From a virus: DNA of 33,853 bases. A model generated the notes under the pieces. It was not told the origin of the DNA and did no database searches. It was given only the letters and a program-made list of their open reading frames with translations. Numbering within the stretch: the stretch's first letter is position 1; each line of letters opens with the position of its first letter. The position numbers were made by a program, and so were the translations under genes. Below, piece after piece: positions 3,743 to 24,854 of this stretch. The stretch spans positions 1-33,853 of IMG/VR virus record IMGVR_UViG_3300047469_000410. One strand, given 5' to 3'.

Positions 3743-5797
3743 TCAGGCGGCTTCTTGCTGTTCGACGACTCTCCACGGGTCATTGGCCCGTGCCAGCGCA
3801 GCCATCGGCGGTGGGCTGACGCTGTTGCCGCACATGTGAACCTGCTGGGTTTTGGTGAACGGTTTGCCGTCGGCGCCGTGGCTGATGATGTAGTCGGCGG
3901 GGAAGCCCTGAGCCTTGTACAGCTCTGCCGGTTGCAGCATCCGCAGGCAGATGTCGACGATCACGTACGGCGTGCCTTTGATGGTGACGGTGACCAGGCC
4001 AAGCCGATCCTTAGTGGTGATGGTTGGCGCTGGTGCGTCGGCGGCGCTCATGTTCTCGGTGCCGTAGTAGCTGATCAGGAATGCCGCAACGCGCAGCGCA
4101 CCGGCCTCCACCTCTGGCGAAAGCTGCAATTCGACGAGCGAACTCTTGCCGCCACCGCCGGCAGTAATGGTCGGTGCCGGCTCGTCCACACCCTGGCCAA
4201 CGCTGGCGCCGAACTGGCGTTCCATGAATGCGGTGACCAGTCCATGGTGCGTGCCGCCGGCGCTGATGGTGTGCAGCGGATCGGCTGCGTCCCGTGCATC
4301 GCAGTTGCCGCGCAGGTGCACCAGATTCGCCGTCACCAGCTGCTGCTGGCTGCCGGTGTTGGTCACTGTGGTCATCGGGTCCTCGATGCTCTTGGCAGCT
4401 GTTGTGTTGAAACCGCCATTCATCTGCGCCATGAACACCGTGGAAATGCCCATGGCGTGAGCGGCACCGGCAGGTCGCTGGTAGTTGCCGCCGCTGGTTA
4501 TGGTCGGCAGCGGCTCGGCGAGCGCCTTGCCTTCGTCTGCAAACCTGAACTTCACCAGATGCGCAGCGGCCACACCGTACTTTCCACCCGAAGCCATTAT
4601 CGTTCCGAGTGGTTCGTGCTGGTCCGCAGTGCGTGGGGCAGATCCCGGTTTGTCACCGTTGCCGAGCTGCACAAGGGTGGCCGCAGAGAGCGTCAGTTCT
4701 CCGCGATTAGCGCAGGTTACTGTCGGCATCGGTTCCCGTGGGTCGTTGATTCGGTCACTGCCTTGATGTGTTGCCGGCGCGATGATCGGGCTGGCCATGG
4801 CAAACGATCCTCCGCGCGGCCAAGACGTCACCGTGCGCAATGGCTCGTTTGCAGACTGGACGCTTTCCCCAGACCAATTCGCGATCGGCACAATGAATGG
4901 GTCAGCAGCATCGATGACGAATTTCTGCATGCCCTTGGCGATTCGGCGCAGCGTGGCCGGTGCCAGCGGCTTTGCGCGGTCGAAGATGCTTCTGCTCGGG
5001 ATGCTCCAGTCGATGCACTCGGCAGCGGTGCGCCACTTCTGCTGACCCTTGGCCGGGTTCTTCGCGTGGGTTGGCTCAGGCCACACAATCGGCTGGCCGT
5101 CGCAGCGGGCGATCATGAACAGGCGCTCACGGCTGGTCGGTGCACCGAAGTCGCAGGCCTTGATGACCCTCCACTCAACCGCGTAGCCCAGACGTTGCAG
5201 CTCTGCGACGAACACTGCCCACGTTTGCCCGCGACGTTTCGGGTCAGGTACCAGGAACTGCTGGTAAACTGGTACGACTTCGCCAGGCTCGGCAATGGCG
5301 CCGCCCAGCTTCATGACACGGCCGGTCGACTTGCAACGCTTGGCGATCAGCGGCCCCCACTGGAGGATCTGCTTCACGTTCTCCAAGCTGATGACACGAG
5401 GCTTCTTTTTGCCGGCCCACTTCAGCCCGATCCACGACAGGTTCCGAATCTCGCGCTTGCGCGGCTGTCCGCCGGCGGCTTGGCTGTGGTGCGTGCAGTC
5501 CGGCGACATGTGGAACCAACCCACGGCCTTGCCGCCGCACTCGGTGTCCGGATCACCCTCGAACACGTCGGTGGTGTAGTGCACTGCGCCCGGGTGGTTC
5601 ACGGTGTGCATGCTGATCGCCTGCGGGCTGTGGTTCTTCGCCACGTTCACCGCGCGGCCCAACCCCATCTCCAGCCCGGTACCGGCGCCGCCGCCACCAC
5701 AGAAGAAGTCGACAACGATCTCATCGTCCTGAGTGCTGAAGGCGAGTCCGTATTGAGTTTTGAAATCGAAGGGGTGTTTCTTCTGTTGTGCGGACAT
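3743..5797 (-). CDS. DNA cytosine-5 methyltransferase with repeat-built recognition region
   Basis: Methylates cytosine at C5, probably to protect phage DNA from host restriction. Motif I is VVDFFCGGGGAGTGLE (28-43). The catalytic Cys101 is in SPDCTHHS, a Cys shifted relative to the classical PCQ. ENV lies at 139-141, DFGAPTSRERLF (216-227) is motif VIII, QPAELYKAQGFP (622-633) is motif IX, and GNSV (657-660) is motif X. Between VIII and IX sit eight repeats, each starting (D/E/A)-P-x-x-T-(I/V), at about residues 318, 355, 395, 428, 473, 506, 539 and 588, giving 684 aa against roughly 350-450 for common enzymes. GAGGA precedes the ATG. Part of the leftward operon. Confidence 0.95.
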   Translation of the reverse strand: MSAQQKKHPFDFKTQYGLAFSTQDDEIVVDFFCGGGGAGTGLEMGLGRAVNVAKNHSPQAISMHTVNHPGAVHYTTDVFEGDPDTECGGKAVGWFHMSPDCTHHSQAAGGQPRKREIRNLSWIGLKWAGKKKPRVISLENVKQILQWGPLIAKRCKSTGRVMKLGGAIAEPGEVVPVYQQFLVPDPKRRGQTWAVFVAELQRLGYAVEWRVIKACDFGAPTSRERLFMIARCDGQPIVWPEPTHAKNPAKGQQKWRTAAECIDWSIPSRSIFDRAKPLAPATLRRIAKGMQKFVIDAADPFIVPIANWSGESVQSANEPLRTVTSWPRGGSFAMASPIIAPATHQGSDRINDPREPMPTVTCANRGELTLSAATLVQLGNGDKPGSAPRTADQHEPLGTIMASGGKYGVAAAHLVKFRFADEGKALAEPLPTITSGGNYQRPAGAAHAMGISTVFMAQMNGGFNTTAAKSIEDPMTTVTNTGSQQQLVTANLVHLRGNCDARDAADPLHTISAGGTHHGLVTAFMERQFGASVGQGVDEPAPTITAGGGGKSSLVELQLSPEVEAGALRVAAFLISYYGTENMSAADAPAPTITTKDRLGLVTVTIKGTPYVIVDICLRMLQPAELYKAQGFPADYIISHGADGKPFTKTQQVHMCGNSVSPPPMAALARANDPWRVVEQQEAA

Positions 5798-7801: not shown

Positions 7802-8102
7802 TTCCAATTCGTAGCGCCTCGCGCACCCTGAAATTTTCAAGCTTCCGCGCCACAGACGGTGAAATGTTGATTTCGTGTCGCGGAGGCTCAAGCAGTGGCA
7901 AAGCGCCGCACGGGCCAAGGCCGTGCAGATGGTGAATCATCAGCGTGATCGCCTCGCCCTGTTCCTCGATGCCGCTCCAGGCCATCAGCTCAGCAAGTGC
8001 TTGGCGAGTACCGGGCAGGCAGTGCAGCCTGATTTCTTCTTCGCCGCGGCTCTTCCTCTTCGCCGCAGCTTTCGCTGAGCGATCTGCATTGCTCTTGGCC
8101 AT
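7782..8102 (-). CDS. Small basic protein, possibly ribbon-helix-helix-like
   Basis: A 106-residue protein with a Lys/Arg/Ala-rich start (SNADRSAKAAAKRKSRGEE) followed by EEIRLHCLPGTRQALAELMAWSGIEEQGEAITLMIHHLHGLG. A strand followed by two helices is what Arc/MetJ-type DNA-binding proteins look like, but no signature is strong enough to be sure. AGAGGT precedes the ATG. It ends the chain of recombination and accessory genes coming from the right. A regulatory or DNA-binding role is inference. Confidence 0.72.
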   Translation of the reverse strand: MAKSNADRSAKAAAKRKSRGEEEIRLHCLPGTRQALAELMAWSGIEEQGEAITLMIHHLHGLGPCGALPLLEPPRHEINISPSVARKLENFRVREALRIGTNCQLE

Positions 8103-8177
8103 GGCCTACCTCTTCAATTCCGCTGGCCGGCAAGTCCAGCCAGGTTTGTCGTTTGCGTTGTTGGGGTCTGGAACGTC

Positions 8178-8642
8178 TCACGCAGCTACCTTCACCTGAT
8201 GCCAGGCGCCGGCGGCGTAGAACAGCTTCGCGGCTTGGGCTTCGTCCATCAATATCTCATCGGGAATGGCAATCCAGCCTGATGCGACCAGATGGGTCGG
8301 GTTCGCGCTGTTCCGCAGTTCCAGGTAGTAATGCTCGATGGCATCGGTCAGGCGCTCGACCTTGTAGATGCCCTCTGGCGATATCTCCACCGACTTGATG
8401 TATTCGGCGCCGCGTTCGTCGCGACACATGGCGCCGATGTAAATCGTCCAGCGGTAGGAGAAGTCGAAGATCGCGTTGGCGATCGCCACACTTCGGATCT
8501 GCTTGCAGCTCTTCCAGTTCGCCATGATCTGGCTGCCGCTGGGGTCAATGTTCACCACTGCGACGTGGTTGGTGCGCAGCAGCGCCCTGCAACTGCGTTC
8601 AGCTCGGGCGAAACCGTTGTTGGGTTTGCGTTTCGACTTCAT
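8178..8642 (-). CDS. Conserved-looking phage protein, unknown function
   Basis: A 154-residue protein with a basic start (KSKRKPNNGFARAERSCRALLRTNHVAVVNIDPSG). Later come SVEISPEGIYKVERLTDAIEHYYLELRNSANPTHLVASGWIAIPDE and an Ala-rich end. Its ATG overlaps the previous stop as ATGA, so it is translationally coupled. It belongs with the YqaJ/RecT recombination genes by position. No catalytic motif is visible to me. Confidence 0.8.
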   Translation of the reverse strand: MKSKRKPNNGFARAERSCRALLRTNHVAVVNIDPSGSQIMANWKSCKQIRSVAIANAIFDFSYRWTIYIGAMCRDERGAEYIKSVEISPEGIYKVERLTDAIEHYYLELRNSANPTHLVASGWIAIPDEILMDEAQAAKLFYAAGAWHQVKVAA

Positions 8643-12854: not shown

Positions 12855-13193
12855 ATGCGTGTTATTTCGAAGGCCGTATGTCTAGTTGCTTTGGTCGCGC
12901 TCAGTAATTTGGGGCAGACCCAAGCGGCTACCGAGGATCACGACATCGCTGTAACCATGGTGGCTATGGGGCGCATGTGTGCAGAACAAGATCCTGGAAT
13001 GAATTACTCGCTGCAGAACATCTTTTCCCTTCCAGACATAGCGGCAAATGCAGATCTAAAGAAGGAGATTCTTGCGGTAGATACCAATCCGGCATTTCAG
13101 GATGAAATCAAGGCAGTTCAAGTGCAGGCCGCAGGGGATCCGTCGGCAGCAAAACAGTTCTGCCCGAGCTATGCGCCGAAAGCTAGCAAGTAA
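12855..13193 (+). CDS. Small exported protein (moron)
   Basis: A 112-residue protein with a clear Sec signal peptide: basic start MRVISK, hydrophobic AVCLVALVALSNLG, cleavage expected after TQA at about residue 24. The mature part is about 88 residues with two Cys (MCAEQDPG and QFCPSYAP) that could form one disulfide in the periplasm. AAGGA precedes the ATG. It lies against the leftward operon, with its own promoter-like sequence and a terminator after it, which makes it a self-contained lysogenic-conversion gene. No family is recognised; an envelope or phage-exclusion role is a guess. Confidence 0.85.
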   Translation: MRVISKAVCLVALVALSNLGQTQAATEDHDIAVTMVAMGRMCAEQDPGMNYSLQNIFSLPDIAANADLKKEILAVDTNPAFQDEIKAVQVQAAGDPSAAKQFCPSYAPKASK

Positions 13194-14752: not shown

Positions 14753-14781
14753 AATATAGGCACTCCCATATTTACTGTCAA
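14753..14781 (-). promoter_or_regulatory. Leftward early promoter PL
   Basis: The minus strand reads TTGACA (14781-14776), a 17-bp spacer and TATATT (14758-14753): a perfect -35 and a five-of-six -10. RNA would start near 14746 and run into the leftward operon. Repressor-type operators cover both hexamers. Confidence 0.88.
14755..14770. promoter_or_regulatory. Left operator OL2
   Basis: The 16-bp TATAGGCACTCCCATA closely matches the operator at 18581 (TACGGGCGCTCCCATA, differing at three positions) and covers the -10/spacer of PL. Confidence 0.75.
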
Positions 14782-14795
14782 TGGGTATTCCCATA
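14780..14795. promoter_or_regulatory. Left operator OL1
   Basis: AATGGGTATTCCCATA, a near-perfect dyad and the same motif as the operator at 18629 (TATGGGTATTCCCGTA). It overlaps the -35 of PL and begins 25 bp from OL2. Confidence 0.82.
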
Positions 14796-14868: not shown

Positions 14869-15279
14869 CTACACCGCCTGCTGTTCCAAATCAGAGCCAC
14901 AGTATCGGCACTTCTTGGCGGCGGCCTTGATGGTCTCCGCGCAGAACGGGCATTCCTTGCTCGCAGCAGCGGCAGCAAGATCCTCGGCGTAAGTCGTGGT
15001 CTCGACCGGACGGGCATAGTGGATCGCGGGCTTGTTGAGTGCCCAGATGAAAGCCGCAACCCAGCCGATAAAAGTCCAGCCAGCGAGGAGGTTTAGCGCG
15101 AAGATCGGGGTGGCCCTGGGGTGTTCGCCCACAGCGCAGATTGTCGGGTAGAAGTACAGCGCGATCACGCTAGGAAAAAAAACGATGCTTGCGACCATTG
15201 CAAAGCCGTTGGTGCCGCTCCCGATCAGGTAGCTGACTAGGCAAACAATACCGAGCAGAATCAGGCCTACGATCTTCAT
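14869..15279 (-). CDS. Superinfection-immunity membrane protein with C-terminal zinc ribbon
   Basis: A 136-residue inner-membrane protein. Hydrophobic segments lie at about 3-20, 26-45 and 57-80. The last, PRATPIFALNLLAGWTFIGWVAAFIWAL, is the signature of the phage superinfection-immunity (T4 Imm-like) family, which blocks DNA entry of related phages. The C-terminus carries CPFCAETIKAAAKKCRYCG, a CxxC-CxxC zinc ribbon. GGAGG precedes the ATG. It lies between OL and cI, where lambda keeps rex, so it should be expressed in the lysogen. Confidence 0.92.
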   Translation of the reverse strand: MKIVGLILLGIVCLVSYLIGSGTNGFAMVASIVFFPSVIALYFYPTICAVGEHPRATPIFALNLLAGWTFIGWVAAFIWALNKPAIHYARPVETTTYAEDLAAAAASKECPFCAETIKAAAKKCRYCGSDLEQQAV

Positions 15280-15415
15280 TGGTTCCCTCCATCAATTGAG
15301 CCGAAATTTTACCATTCGTGGCCGTGCGCCACCATCGTCTGCGCCGTCAGTCGTCCCCACTGAACGGCCGCGCTATGGTGGATCTCTACCGGTGCGCACC
15401 CACCAGGTACTCACC

Positions 15416-15579
15416 ATGAACGACGATCGGAAAGCGCAGCCCTGCTCGCTTGGCAAGAATTACTCGAAGAGCCAGAAATTCGGAGGGACGCGGAGCAGCC
15501 GTACCATGAGCTGTGGAAGCTGGCGGACGATTACACGTGTGTCGCGGGATCGAGGCTGATTCTCGGCGAGAACCGGTAG
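15416..15579 (+). pseudogene. Small plus-strand gene broken by a one-base frameshift
   Basis: From the ATG at 15416 (AGG seven bases upstream) the frame reads MNDDRK and then becomes nonsense-like. The next frame from codon six onward reads SAALLAWQELLEEPEIRRDAEQPYHELWKLADDYTCVAGSRLILGENR to a TAG at 15577-15579 but has no start codon of its own. Adding one base in the AAA at about 15431-15433 restores a smooth 54-residue helical protein. So either the gene lost one A, or the sequence has an error. The rest of the 15280-15694 gap shows no gene. Confidence 0.6.
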
Positions 15580-15694
15580 AGGGGGCAACCGCCTGCTAAG
15601 GGCATTCGATTAAAGGGCTGGAAGGGGCGGACGAACGGAAGGGGTGTATGAAAGGCCGATGTCGCGCCGGACTAAGGATTTGGGTATATGAAAG

Positions 15695-16216
15695 CTAAAA
15701 TAACTTAAAGGAAAAATCAGTGTTTGAGTGATCACACAAAACGTCATAAACGAAATGTGTTTTAACGCCAAAGTTTGCTGCGGCATCTGGAATTTGTATT
15801 TTATTTCGTCGTTCGGGTTTGCTTAGTTCGTGGGTGATGATTTCTTGGCCGTAGGCCATCGCTGTAGCGATTAAAAAGGCGTCTGCTATGTCAGCGCGGG
15901 CGAATTCTTTTTTTGCAGGTTCGGTAAAATGGCTATTGGCTGCGGTCCACTTCATTATTTCTTTATATTTAGAGAGTACCCTCGGGTCAGTGTCGTCGGG
16001 CATGAAAAACGTAGAAGGAAGTTGCAGTGCCCATTTCCGTACTGGGTCATCATCTTTGCCCTTTAACAGCTCTTCTTTAACTTTGGACGTCGAACAAACG
16101 ACCCCGCTTGCATGAGCGCGCTCAACCCACGTCCAAAAGTGATTGCAGAATTCAAACCGATAATGAAGATTTTTGGCCTGCAAAAATATATTCGAATCGA
16201 CTAGATATTTATGCAT
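15695..16216 (-). CDS. DUF4411 PIN-like nuclease
   Basis: A 173-residue protein of the DUF4411 family, whose fold is related to PIN ribonucleases. The start is YLVDSNIFLQAKNLHY, with Asp7 as the first acidic ligand. Then come EELLKGKDDDPVRKWA and ADIADAFLIATAMAYGQEIITHE, giving further acidic residues around 128-132 and the conserved last block. PIN proteins usually act as RNases and toxins. It overlaps the end of the ImmA/IrrE gene by 8 bp without a good ribosome site, so the pair is coupled. ImmA/IrrE with DUF4411 is a recurrent gene pair with predicted toxin-antitoxin or defence function. The region is visibly AT-richer than the phage core. Confidence 0.9.
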   Translation of the reverse strand: MHKYLVDSNIFLQAKNLHYRFEFCNHFWTWVERAHASGVVCSTSKVKEELLKGKDDDPVRKWALQLPSTFFMPDDTDPRVLSKYKEIMKWTAANSHFTEPAKKEFARADIADAFLIATAMAYGQEIITHELSKPERRNKIQIPDAAANFGVKTHFVYDVLCDHSNTDFSFKLF

Positions 16217-17339
16217 GGCTGCGAATGTTCTTATTGTAAAGGTTGGTAACTGTGCCTGGGTTTACATTCAGAAGTCTAGCCGCGTCTCGCATTAGGGTGC
16301 TTCCTTCCATGGCGCTTCGAACTAATGCATTAGTTACTTTTTTGCTGTTTCGTACAGGTATGGTAGCGTAAGGGTTGCCCCCGCCCCCAGCGGCTTTGAA
16401 GCTGTTTGCATACAGAGAGCCGTACACCTCTTTGTTTATCTTTCCCAGCTCATATGCTCTGCGGCCGACTACCAGTCTGCTAACGCGAAAATATTTGCTT
16501 GCGCGATCAATAGCCTCTAATCCGCCGCCTTCCCAAACTGATAGGAATTCGGATCTCGGTACCAAGAGCTCTGCTGCCACGCGATTGCAATAGGATTCAA
16601 CATTGCTGTCAGATGTAAAATCTTTTGGGGAGGGGATATCCGAAACACCACTTTCTCCGATCCATATATGAGCGACTTCGTGAGCTAAAGTAAATATCCA
16701 CGCCGCTTCGGCATCCTTTCCATTAATGAACACTGCCGGAGCAAACTGGTTGCAGATGGCAAAGCCTCTGAATTCCGAAACCGATAACGCTCGCTTAGTA
16801 TTGCTTTTAACTATTCCGCTCTTGAATACAAGAATTCCAGCGGATTCGAAGCGCTCAGAAAGCACTCGAAAATATTCTTCTGGATTGGCGCAGCTTCTCT
16901 TCAAATCTTGGGTAATTTCGCAGCGAGCAGCGATTTCTTGCGCAACCATTTCGACGCCGTTCGATGTGTCGTATTTTCCGACAAAATCTAATGGCTCAGC
17001 ACCTACCTCCCGAAGATAGTCAAGATACCAGTCTTGCTTGGCTATCACGTCTTCCAAAACCTCGAAGAAATCCGAGCCTAATGGGTTTGGGCTCGACACT
17101 TGCCGCATATCAGGCAACCGAGGTTTTTCTATTTCGGGAGGACTATCCAATAACAGATAACCAAACGGAGTTCGCGTCGTCGACGCTACTTTCTCTAGCT
17201 GGCGTATCGTCAGCTCACCGGTCAGGAATTTATCTATCCCACGTCCCGAGGCAATCGAGGATGCGAGATCCTCAAGCGTCTTGCCAATCTGGCTTGCAGC
17301 CCAGTCTAGAACAGATGGGGAGATGGTAAGCGTATCCAT
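16209..17339 (-). CDS. ImmA/IrrE-family metallopeptidase with helix-turn-helix
   Basis: A 376-residue regulator-protease. Residues 1-65 form the Xre-like DNA-binding part typical of this family (LDWAASQIGKTLEDLA, then LEKVASTTRTPFGYLLL). The gluzincin motif HEVAH is at 220-224 with a likely third ligand Glu248 in VESYCNRVAAELLVP. The C-terminus adds a second helix-turn-helix (LMRDAARLLNVNPGTVTNLY, about 349-368). Relatives such as ImmA and IrrE cleave repressors in response to stress. Here it probably controls its DUF4411 partner. The ribosome site is poor; an inverted repeat around a TTGACA lies upstream at 17413-17440. Confidence 0.93.
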   Translation of the reverse strand: MDTLTISPSVLDWAASQIGKTLEDLASSIASGRGIDKFLTGELTIRQLEKVASTTRTPFGYLLLDSPPEIEKPRLPDMRQVSSPNPLGSDFFEVLEDVIAKQDWYLDYLREVGAEPLDFVGKYDTSNGVEMVAQEIAARCEITQDLKRSCANPEEYFRVLSERFESAGILVFKSGIVKSNTKRALSVSEFRGFAICNQFAPAVFINGKDAEAAWIFTLAHEVAHIWIGESGVSDIPSPKDFTSDSNVESYCNRVAAELLVPRSEFLSVWEGGGLEAIDRASKYFRVSRLVVGRRAYELGKINKEVYGSLYANSFKAAGGGGNPYATIPVRNSKKVTNALVRSAMEGSTLMRDAARLLNVNPGTVTNLYNKNIRSHA

Positions 17340-17412
17340 AATTTATTTTTCGCACGTCGACCCTGACGATTATGTAGCTCTAAGCTGTTCTTGTCTGCGT
17401 CTAATTGCATCA

Positions 17413-17440
17413 CTATCGTGGTTGTCAAGCTTCACGATAG
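17413..17440 (-). promoter_or_regulatory. Operator-like inverted repeat around a -35 for immA-DUF4411
   Basis: CTATCGTG (17413-17420) and CACGATAG (17433-17440) are perfect 8-bp arms. Between them the minus strand has TTGACA (17428-17423). The -10 at 17-bp spacing (ATTAGA) is poor, so the promoter is tentative, but the dyad placement suggests autoregulation. Confidence 0.42.
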
Positions 17441-17766
17441 ACGAAATACTCGCTTTGACCACCTGCAATCCATGCGTTCAAAGCTTTATTCACGAGCGCT
17501 ATGGATGAACCCGGGCGATACGTGTGGACGGCATCATAGAAAAAAACAGTTGTATCCCAGGTTTCGCCATCGTGGATCAGTGGCAAGAGCAAGTTGATTA
17601 CTCCAAAGCCGTCCTCTCCATCCGCCCCCAAGGCATTGCTAACCGTGGCTCTGAGCTTAGGTGCTTCGGTACGCATGCAGCCGATTACTGCAATTCCGCT
17701 GGTTTTGAGAGCATGAGCAATATCGGAGATGTCGTCCCCACCATCCAAAAAGAAAACTTCCGTCAT
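17425..17766 (-). CDS. Unknown protein of the immunity region
   Basis: A 113-residue soluble protein read in the same direction as cI and lying between cI and the ImmA gene. GGAG lies ten bases before the ATG. The chain alternates strands and helices (TEVFFLDGGDDISDIAHALKTSGIAVIGCMR, then TWDTTVFFYDAVHTYRPGSSIALVNKALNAWIAGG). No family is recognised. Because it is downstream of the repressor it should be made in lysogens, like lambda rex genes; any defence role is inference. Confidence 0.75.
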   Translation of the reverse strand: MTEVFFLDGGDDISDIAHALKTSGIAVIGCMRTEAPKLRATVSNALGADGEDGFGVINLLLPLIHDGETWDTTVFFYDAVHTYRPGSSIALVNKALNAWIAGGQSEYFVYREA

Positions 17767-17837: not shown

Positions 17838-18569
17838 TCAGCGCGAGTACATCGCCCACCAAAACACATGCCCTAGAATCGATATCTGCTGCTGTTGGAT
17901 CTGCTGGAACGTGTAGTCCTCGTCCGGGTGCTCGTCACGGTTGAAGCTACGCAGGCGAAGACCGGTAGGGATGCGATAGACCTGCTTCACGCGAAGCTGG
18001 CCGTTGTGGTTGATTGCGTACATCTCGCCGTCGACGATATCGCTCAGGGAATTTTTCCCCACGTTCACGCCGACGGTGGCGCCGTCGCGCAGCACAGGCA
18101 CCATGCTGTTGCCACCGACCTTCACGCACTTCGCATTGCTGAACTGAACGCCGTTGTGGCGCAGGTCCTTCTTGTTGAAGCGCAAGCGTGAGTTGGCGCT
18201 TTCCTCAATCGCAAACCTGCCAGATCCGGCCGCCAGTTCGACTTCATGAAGGAAGGGGACGTAGACCTCATCGTCATCGAGTGGGGTTTCGTCATCCCAG
18301 GTTTCGATGGTGCCAAGTTTCACGCTGGGCTGGATGCGTTCAGCCTGATGATCAGGCACACCCTTGAGCATGTCACCGACACCTTCAGCCAGCCACATCG
18401 GGGACACGCCACATACAGAGGCGATCTGAGCTGCGAAGGCGGTAGCCTTCGATTTCCCCCTCTCCAAATCGGAGATCGAGGTTTGCGTGAGTCCGGCGCG
18501 CTCAGCAAGCTCAGTCTGATTGAGCTTGGCGTGGCGGCGGGCGGTTTTGAGGCGGTCTTTGAATTCCAT
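17838..18569 (-). CDS. CI/LexA-type phage repressor with S24 autocleavage domain
   Basis: Maintains lysogeny and is inactivated by RecA-stimulated self-cleavage. An Xre helix-turn-helix occupies about residues 5-60 (NQTELAERAGLTQTSISDLERGKSKA). The cleavage bond is Ala114-Gly115 in ELAAGSG, with Ser155 in GGNSM and Lys195 in LRVKQVY as the catalytic dyad. It is 243 aa, typical. The frame stays open far upstream, but the ATG at 18569 begins the domain and lies one base after the predicted RNA start of PRM, with no ribosome site, so the message is probably leaderless as in lambda. Divergent from the cro-like gene. Confidence 0.96.
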   Translation of the reverse strand: MEFKDRLKTARRHAKLNQTELAERAGLTQTSISDLERGKSKATAFAAQIASVCGVSPMWLAEGVGDMLKGVPDHQAERIQPSVKLGTIETWDDETPLDDDEVYVPFLHEVELAAGSGRFAIEESANSRLRFNKKDLRHNGVQFSNAKCVKVGGNSMVPVLRDGATVGVNVGKNSLSDIVDGEMYAINHNGQLRVKQVYRIPTGLRLRSFNRDEHPDEDYTFQQIQQQQISILGHVFWWAMYSR

Positions 18570-18576
18570 CCGCGAA

Positions 18577-18605
18577 GTATTACGGGCGCTCCCATACCCT
18601 TGCAA
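18577..18605 (-). promoter_or_regulatory. Repressor-maintenance promoter PRM
   Basis: The minus strand has TTGCAA (18605-18600), a 17-bp spacer and TAATAC (18582-18577). The start would be near 18570, one base from the cI ATG. The operator at 18581 lies in its core, while the one at 18605 abuts the -35, suiting repression and activation respectively. Confidence 0.55.
18581..18596. promoter_or_regulatory. Right operator nearest cI (OR3-like)
   Basis: TACGGGCGCTCCCATA; on the minus strand it fits the shared pattern TAYGGGARYRCCSRTW. It lies inside PRM. Confidence 0.75.
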
Positions 18606-18629
18606 ATCGGTATTCCCATAACCTACTAT
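18600..18629 (+). promoter_or_regulatory. Rightward early promoter PR
   Basis: TTGCAA (18600-18605), an 18-bp spacer and TACTAT (18624-18629) lead into the cro-like gene. The -35 hexamer is the same self-complementary TTGCAA used by PRM. Confidence 0.6.
18605..18620. promoter_or_regulatory. Middle right operator (OR2-like)
   Basis: AATCGGTATTCCCATA, starting exactly 24 bp from the operator on each side. It covers the -35/spacer of PR. Confidence 0.78.
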
Positions 18630-18644
18630 ATGGGTATTCCCGTA
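18629..18644. promoter_or_regulatory. Right operator nearest cro (OR1-like)
   Basis: TATGGGTATTCCCGTA, the best dyad of the three, covering the PR -10 end and start point. Confidence 0.8.
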
Positions 18645-18656
18645 TGGAGGGGCATC

Positions 18657-18872
18657 ATGAACGCAATTTACAAGGGCCTCGTTGACTACTTCGGCACCCA
18701 GGAGGCCACCGCCGAAAAGCTCAAGGTTGATCAAAGCACCGTTTCCGGCTGGGTTCGGGGGAAGCACGGCATGTCTCCGGTTATTGCCAAACGAGCGGAG
18801 GCGCTGACCGAAGGTGCTTTCAAAAAAGAAAACCTGTGCCCGTCGTTTCCTTGGGCCGAGATGGCCGCCTAA
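18657..18872 (+). CDS. Cro-like regulator of the YdaS family
   Basis: A 71-residue DNA-binding protein: YKGLVDYFGTQEATAEKLKVDQSTVSGWVRGKHGMSPVIAKRAEAL is the YdaS/Cro-type helix-turn-helix (recognition helix about 26-35). YdaS was once named an antitoxin, but work on E. coli prophage homologues supports a Cro-like role repressing the lysogeny promoter. GGAGG precedes the ATG. It is divergent from cI across three shared operators, and the next gene is YdaT-like, the usual partner. Confidence 0.93.
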   Translation: MNAIYKGLVDYFGTQEATAEKLKVDQSTVSGWVRGKHGMSPVIAKRAEALTEGAFKKENLCPSFPWAEMAA

Positions 18873-24635: not shown

Positions 24636-24854
24636 ATACCTTGAATTTACCTGTAGCCAGGACAGCCCTCGGGAACGCCTGGACGTCGATAGCCGGACAG
24701 TGCGACGTACGGAAACAACACCGGCAGCCCAGCACTCTGACCTCACATGCTTGCAGAGTGGCGCGAGACTGGATCAGCGAGATCGATGCAAAGGGGCGTC
24801 GACGCTGGGATGGTCTTTGGCCGACAGCTCGGAAAGACGAGCGCACCTATTCAG

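Follow-up and report, generated by a model that had tools for sequence, protein, structure and literature searches.

A probable VapBC52-type toxin-antitoxin pair as rex-position cargo of a lambdoid Pseudomonas prophage

Operons in which a fused Xre-COG2856 gene accompanies a PIN toxin gene were predicted in 2009 as a toxin-antitoxin class present in phages, prophages and plasmids (PMC2701414). In 2019, Rv2514c of Mycobacterium tuberculosis was found to be toxic in M. smegmatis and to be rescued by the operon with Rv2515c (PMC6504116), and the structure of the VapB52-VapC52 (Rv2515c-Rv2514c) complex (9VZY/9VZZ), together with its single-stranded DNA (ssDNA) trigger, was published in 2026 (PMC13273310). 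VapC52 is a PIN toxin that cuts tRNA. Its partner VapB52 is exceptionally large for an antitoxin: it comprises N-terminal, IrrE-protease and C-terminal domains, binds two toxins and, upon ssDNA, cleaves off its own N-terminal domain, on which toxin binding depends (PMC13273310). The same study reported that residue C229 plugs the active site of VapB52 (the ‘cysteine switch’), that the fold neighbours of the antitoxin are C.Csp231I and BswR (N-terminal domain) and CapP and IrrE (middle domain), and that M. smegmatis overexpressing VapC52 was protected from phage D29 (PMC13273310). Xre-type repressors are substrates of IrrE-family proteases, among them ImmA and CapP (PMC2701414, PMC13273310). 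In the prophages of Pseudomonas putida, RexAB of prophage P1 is a lysogen-expressed exclusion system seated in the rex slot, and HicAB is a working toxin-antitoxin system that gives no protection (PMC12894663). Here, we describe a pair of genes akin to vapBC52, P0002 and P0003, in the virus record IMGVR_UViG_3300047469_000410, which was analysed as one stretch of 33,853 nucleotides (hereafter, the window); L-numbered labels denote the loci of relatives.

We read P0002 (376 amino acids; 16209-17339, minus strand), a three-domain antitoxin-protease, and P0003 (173 amino acids; 15695-16216, minus strand), a DUF4411 PIN-domain RNase and predicted toxin, as a toxin-antitoxin module of the VapBC52 type (Xre-COG2856/DUF4411), which a lambdoid Pseudomonas prophage carries in the rex position, and assign this reading a probability of about 0.78. 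It is founded on partner homology, invariant catalytic residues, joint inheritance, purifying selection, position and a candidate promoter, and the binding mode, the ssDNA trigger, self-cleavage, the tRNA target and the antiphage effect are carried over from the homologue of M. tuberculosis.

Compared with PDB sequences, the two proteins gave convincing matches only to chains of 9VZY/9VZZ (9vzy_A for P0002, E=5.7e-12, over residues 7-308; 9vzy_D, E=4.3e-5, and 9vzz_A for P0003). P0002 is built of a helix-turn-helix (HTH)-like N-terminal domain (approximately residues 1-68), a conserved junction (PDMR, R79), an M78/IrrE metalloprotease domain (PF06114, 1.9e-12), with HEVAH at residues 220-224 and E248 as third zinc ligand, and a C-terminal domain (approximately 323-376) whose likeness to that of VapB52 is limited to its position and helical content. 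A broad alignment of relatives shows no variation in the HEXXH motif, in the Glu that serves as third ligand or in the junction Arg (R79), and the position before R79 (Met in P0002) is occupied by Met, Leu or Tyr in many of them, the FR motif being that of VapB52. The AlphaFold model of P0002 (mean predicted local distance difference test score, pLDDT, of 87) returned CapP as the closest solved fold for residues 127-316 (Z 12.0, with ssDNA-bound PprI at Z 8.5) and C.Csp231I/BswR-like folds for the N-terminal domain; the VapBC52 entry was absent from these results, which is uninformative since the fold library ends at 2026-04-08. P0002 also gave a PADLOC capP match (1.1e-11), and its filing under PD-Lambda-2, RmrA or capP was dropped, as those matches cover the shared M78 domain. 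As a separate observation, a Cys three residues past the zinc-ligand Glu is invariant in a 30-sequence alignment.

P0003 belongs to DUF4411 (PF14367, 1.8e-39), and its PIN acids D7/E49/D112 are conserved in 42 of the 43 aligned homologues. The initial annotation had proposed a nuclease in which Asp7 matters, and this view holds, since the family is a PIN family and D7 is one of the conserved catalytic acids. Both genes are under strong purifying selection: relative to L010, the ratio of nonsynonymous to synonymous substitution rates (dN/dS) is 0.015 for P0003 and 0.042 for P0002. In L041 (around position 5132) and L100 (approximately 8020-8484) decayed toxins (a 36-residue stub; an in-frame TAG) lie beside intact antitoxin-protease genes, which is the pattern expected for toxin-antitoxin decay.

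The two genes, which overlap by 8 nucleotides, form a unit that is passed on together almost without exception. DUF4411 stands immediately downstream of the protease gene in 13/13 viral relatives of P0002 (one interrupted by the contig end), at P0002 identities of 72-100% in Pseudomonas-type phages and 39-41% in three others; among the genome loci found via the protease profile it comes next in 31/34 (one of the remaining three holding a 36-residue toxin stub), and in 30/30 DUF4411 loci retrieved from Pseudomonas genomes an M78 gene lies directly upstream. The distance matrices of the P0002 and P0003 sets are strongly correlated (r = 0.95, n = 69, with 0/2000 permutations as high), a value partly owed to the common descent of the hosts. 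The nucleotide similarity to L004 runs from the start codon of P0002 to the end of P0003 and nothing beyond, hence the exchangeable DNA block is the two genes. The distribution is sporadic, as DUF4411 was found in 46/399 Pseudomonas species genomes, and homologues occur on 38 plasmids in several bacterial classes. Thus, the overlap of ImmA/IrrE with DUF4411, taken in the initial annotation as the sign of a functional pair, is borne out by joint inheritance, and the outcome it had named as refutation (genes not co-inherited in other prophages) is contradicted, for the pair, by all 13 viral relatives.

The position of the pair is equally recurrent. An S24-type repressor lies upstream of it and co-directional with it in 13/13 viral relatives (Pfam established S24 for nine repressors, and the others were assigned by their similarity to the window’s cI or to one of the repressors so tested), and the N-terminal halves of these adjoining repressors fall into several unrelated types. 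In L134 (528-5495), which is a lambdoid prophage within an Escherichia coli record, the order is CI, pair, kil, gam, bet. Taken together, the viral relatives and the E. coli case mark the pair as recurrent cargo of the rex slot; plasmid and chromosomal copies that have no adjoining repressor exist as well.

A putative sigma-70-like promoter (CAGACA-17 bp-CATAAT; 17397-17369, minus strand) precedes P0002, 29 nucleotides ahead of its start codon. In 12 Pseudomonas loci such a promoter (CAGACA or CTGACA, 17 bp, CATAAT) is kept 27-29 nucleotides ahead of the start codon in upstream DNA that is otherwise divergent. Since roughly 12% of upstream regions, once shuffled, contain a 9-of-12 match, the evidence lies in the constant position and not in the score. 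The initial annotation had the genes read with cI; the co-direction stands, and the dependence is not needed, as the pair, with a candidate promoter of its own, need not rely on cI transcription. A palindrome near this promoter was considered as an operator and dropped, its form not being conserved.

Several points weigh against the assignment. The identity of P0002-P0003 to the M. tuberculosis pair is low, the N-terminal HTH of P0002 is degenerate and gave no Pfam HTH match, and the Phe of the ‘FR’ cleavage motif is replaced by M. The switch cysteine C229 of VapB52 corresponds to Ser233, and a Cys between HEXXH and Glu (P0002 residues 220-251) was found in 0/69 relatives (L002-L050, L095-L124 and L130-L134) and in none of the five annotated plasmid copies with a recognisable motif. 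Evidence of activity comes from the M. tuberculosis pair, and the published antiphage effect was obtained by toxin overexpression (PMC13273310). Considering that all 69 relatives lack the cysteine, the published off-switch cannot work in the same way here, and the cysteine step of autoinhibition cannot hold for the whole class.

We reason that the pair would be transcribed from its candidate promoter, which is indicated by sequence evidence, and that P0002, by gene order, would be translated just ahead of P0003. By analogy with 9VZY, P0002 would hold P0003 via its N-terminal and C-terminal domains and keep it silent in the lysogen. A build-up of ssDNA (from an infecting phage or DNA damage) may then lead the IrrE-type domain to cut off the N-terminal domain of P0002, presumably at or near the conserved junction LPDMR (R79), the cysteine step being excluded in its published form. 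The released PIN RNase would most likely cut tRNA, halting translation and growth, and this is expected to give the lysogen an abortive defence, to make it dependent on the prophage (addiction), or both. The earlier notion of a ‘protease-controlled RNase’ comes near the published mechanism and needs amending in one respect: protease and antitoxin are one and the same protein. We infer antiphage activity of the pair from its mycobacterial counterpart. Rather doubtful, and offered as speculation, is the further idea that the phage and proteobacterial branch uses an off-switch other than the cysteine and senses ssDNA directly, alongside the cleavage of cI that depends on RecA, which would arm the tRNase when a second phage replicates and so make the pair an abortive system of the rex slot.

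The alternative that survives best is that the pair is a genuine toxin-antitoxin module serving only prophage or plasmid maintenance (addiction), with no useful phage defence. The plasmid-borne homologues, the sporadic spread among Pseudomonas species and the decayed toxins next to intact antitoxins in L041 and L100 all agree with it, as does the functional and non-protective HicAB of a P. putida prophage (PMC12894663). On the other hand, the pair recurs in the slot that houses lysogen-expressed exclusion systems, RexAB of P. putida prophage P1 being one example (PMC12894663), and the M. tuberculosis homologue reacts to ssDNA, with its overexpressed toxin blocking phage D29, so that we hold pure addiction to be possible, although less than probable.

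A role as an ImmA/ImmR-like switch, in which P0002 would cleave the adjoining cI or another Xre repressor and thereby steer induction, with DUF4411 merely co-regulated, appears unlikely. The known cleavage of Xre-type repressors by ImmA and CapP (PMC2701414, PMC13273310) and the fact that P0002 immediately follows a repressor at each viral locus speak for it. However, the adjoining repressors have unrelated N-terminal types, each with its own S24 self-cleavage domain, and hence can do without a protease and have no evident target site in common; moreover, the pair occurs on plasmids and chromosomes that lack an adjoining repressor, and the homologue VapB52 cleaves itself.

That all four genes form a single prophage anti-phage island, with a 113-amino-acid protein (P0001) as third component of the protease-RNase pair, is very improbable: although the genes are compact and co-directional between OL and cI, one near-identical contig (L002) holds the same four, and the 113-residue family also stands directly behind another phage repressor (L125), the gene for this protein is intact in only two viral relatives, both with the window’s cI allele (L003 keeping a 27-residue remnant), its other relatives occur where the pair does not, the Imm gene is not downstream in L003, L004, L009, L010 and L011, and the stretch similar to L004 in nucleotide sequence is confined to the pair.

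P0001 (17425-17766, minus strand) represents a small Pseudomonas family that has no named domain; we regard it as a passenger in the slot between cI and the pair. It matched no family in Pfam, PHROGs, NCBIfam or PADLOC, in line with its initial description as unrecognised, and its dN/dS relative to L010 is 0.17. In L003 the remnant lies next to an unrelated 82-amino-acid open reading frame, and in other phages the same slot holds other small open reading frames. Distant relatives (23-29% identity over the full length) are found alone in Pseudomonas genomes, and one of them, in L125 (7501-7839), follows its repressor without the pair; a search for viral relatives of this L125 homologue found no further ones. 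The proposal of a third component, made in the initial annotation, was rejected on this distribution, as the protein is missing or replaced in most pair-bearing relatives, a close one among them, and present elsewhere without the pair. Matches of P0001 to Pseudomonas proteins of 727-779 amino acids were judged to be chance (one short stretch; the three inspected resemble methyl-accepting chemotaxis proteins), the alignment of its family diverged too far to allow a search by pattern, and the AlphaFold model from two sequences (mean pLDDT 56) was not used for its fold. In its own right, the family (window 17425-17766; L125, L126-L129) comprises Pseudomonas proteins of 113-140 amino acids, with no named domain, that sometimes sit behind phage repressors.

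P0004 (136 amino acids; 14869-15279, minus strand) is soundly placed, by its sequence, in the Imm_superinfect family (PF14373, 2.3e-13, 50.2 bits vs. a curated cut-off of 27.9; phrog_1039, 9.2e-17), and hydropathy points to a membrane protein, followed by a C-terminal zinc ribbon; the Imm-family membrane protein foreseen at this place was thus recovered. The gene is present in the near-identical L002 and, as more distant versions, in L006 and L113, and this sporadic occurrence, with an exchangeable block that is the pair, contradicts the claim of one four-gene island. P0004 is an independent passenger that may act in superinfection exclusion or as a DNA-entry block. Both neighbours thus look like separate passengers, and neither resembles a third component.

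All four open reading frames (17425-17766, 16209-17339, 15695-16216 and 14869-15279) were confirmed at the places first annotated, on the minus strand between the left operator (OL) and cI and co-directional with the latter. The transcription order is cI, the 113-amino-acid protein, the HTH-M78 protein, the DUF4411 protein, a gap of 415 bp, the Imm-like protein and OL. The gap (15280-15694) matched no phage record, no tRNA or Rfam family was detected in the module, and the frequency of terminator-like sites did not exceed that of shuffled sequences. The repressor gene cI (17838-18569, minus strand) encodes an HTH and S24 protein (Pfam; PHROG phrog_4). Operator sites of the form TATGGG-N-ATTCCCATA gave nine matches on both strands vs. 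0.39 expected, and comprise an OL pair (two sites, 14755-14795), which overlaps a PL-like promoter (TTGACA-17-TATATT; 14781-14753, minus strand), and, by operator pattern match, a right operator (OR) triplet (three sites, 18581-18644). The phage is of Pseudomonas type, as 45 of the 46 matching phage records come from this genus. Elsewhere in the window, a Proteo-phage-1 RNA (Rfam RF03044) lies at 24651-24729 (plus strand; 79 bits vs. a gathering score of 42), a 112-amino-acid open reading frame with a signal-peptide-like start and no family match lies at 12855-13193 (plus strand, opposite to its neighbours), and the protein in the cro position (18657-18872, plus strand) matches YdaS_toxin (PF15943), its P22_Cro match being below the cut-off.

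The locus is real and well conserved, the pair is a further copy of a known kind of toxin-antitoxin system, and the four-gene reading is unsupported. The description of the module as the best candidate for an undescribed system therefore fails, the class having been predicted in 2009 (PMC2701414), its toxin-antitoxin nature shown in 2019 (PMC6504116) and its structure published in 2026 (PMC13273310). What the locus adds is that a class whose detailed description has come from M. tuberculosis alone is now tied to temperate phages, with a recurrent address directly behind the repressor, the slot of rexAB in lambda. This placement, together with dozens of natural variants, makes the antiphage function testable in a natural setting.

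Among the described systems, classical VapBC modules are set apart by their small antitoxins (8-13 kDa, of ribbon-helix-helix, AbrB or Phd type), a description that P0002, with 376 amino acids and an M78 domain, does not fit. ImmA/ImmR and CapP/CapH pair the protease with a dedicated and conserved Xre-repressor substrate gene adjoining it, which the prophage locus lacks. CapP, of the cyclic oligonucleotide-based antiphage signalling system (CBASS), shares the IrrE-type protease domain with P0002, but cleaves a separate repressor, CapH, and governs CBASS genes, none of which occurs at the prophage locus. The passenger P0004 falls in the family of T4 Imm and its relatives (Imm_superinfect), yet it is prophage-borne and ends in a zinc ribbon. 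RexAB (of lambda and of P. putida prophage P1) occupies the same slot downstream of a CI-like repressor and is likewise co-directional, but it works by a membrane-channel mechanism whereas the prophage pair has a predicted RNase, and no Rex family appeared among the best Pfam and PHROG matches, which would fit a lack of relation in sequence or domains (RexA and RexB were not compared directly). The class of Makarova et al. (PMC2701414) has the same arrangement, with a PIN toxin gene behind a fused HTH-Zn protease gene; its protease was proposed to cut a separate Xre antitoxin, whereas here no third gene is conserved. The closest likeness is to VapBC52, with which the pair has in common the antitoxin-toxin order, the HTH/IrrE-protease/C-terminal build of the antitoxin, the DUF4411 PIN acids, HEXXH with its Glu, and the junction Arg; the predicted fold neighbours of P0002 are also those named for VapB52 (C.Csp231I and BswR; CapP and IrrE). 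It departs from VapBC52 in having Ser for the switch cysteine and M for F in FR, and in being phage-borne in the rex slot.

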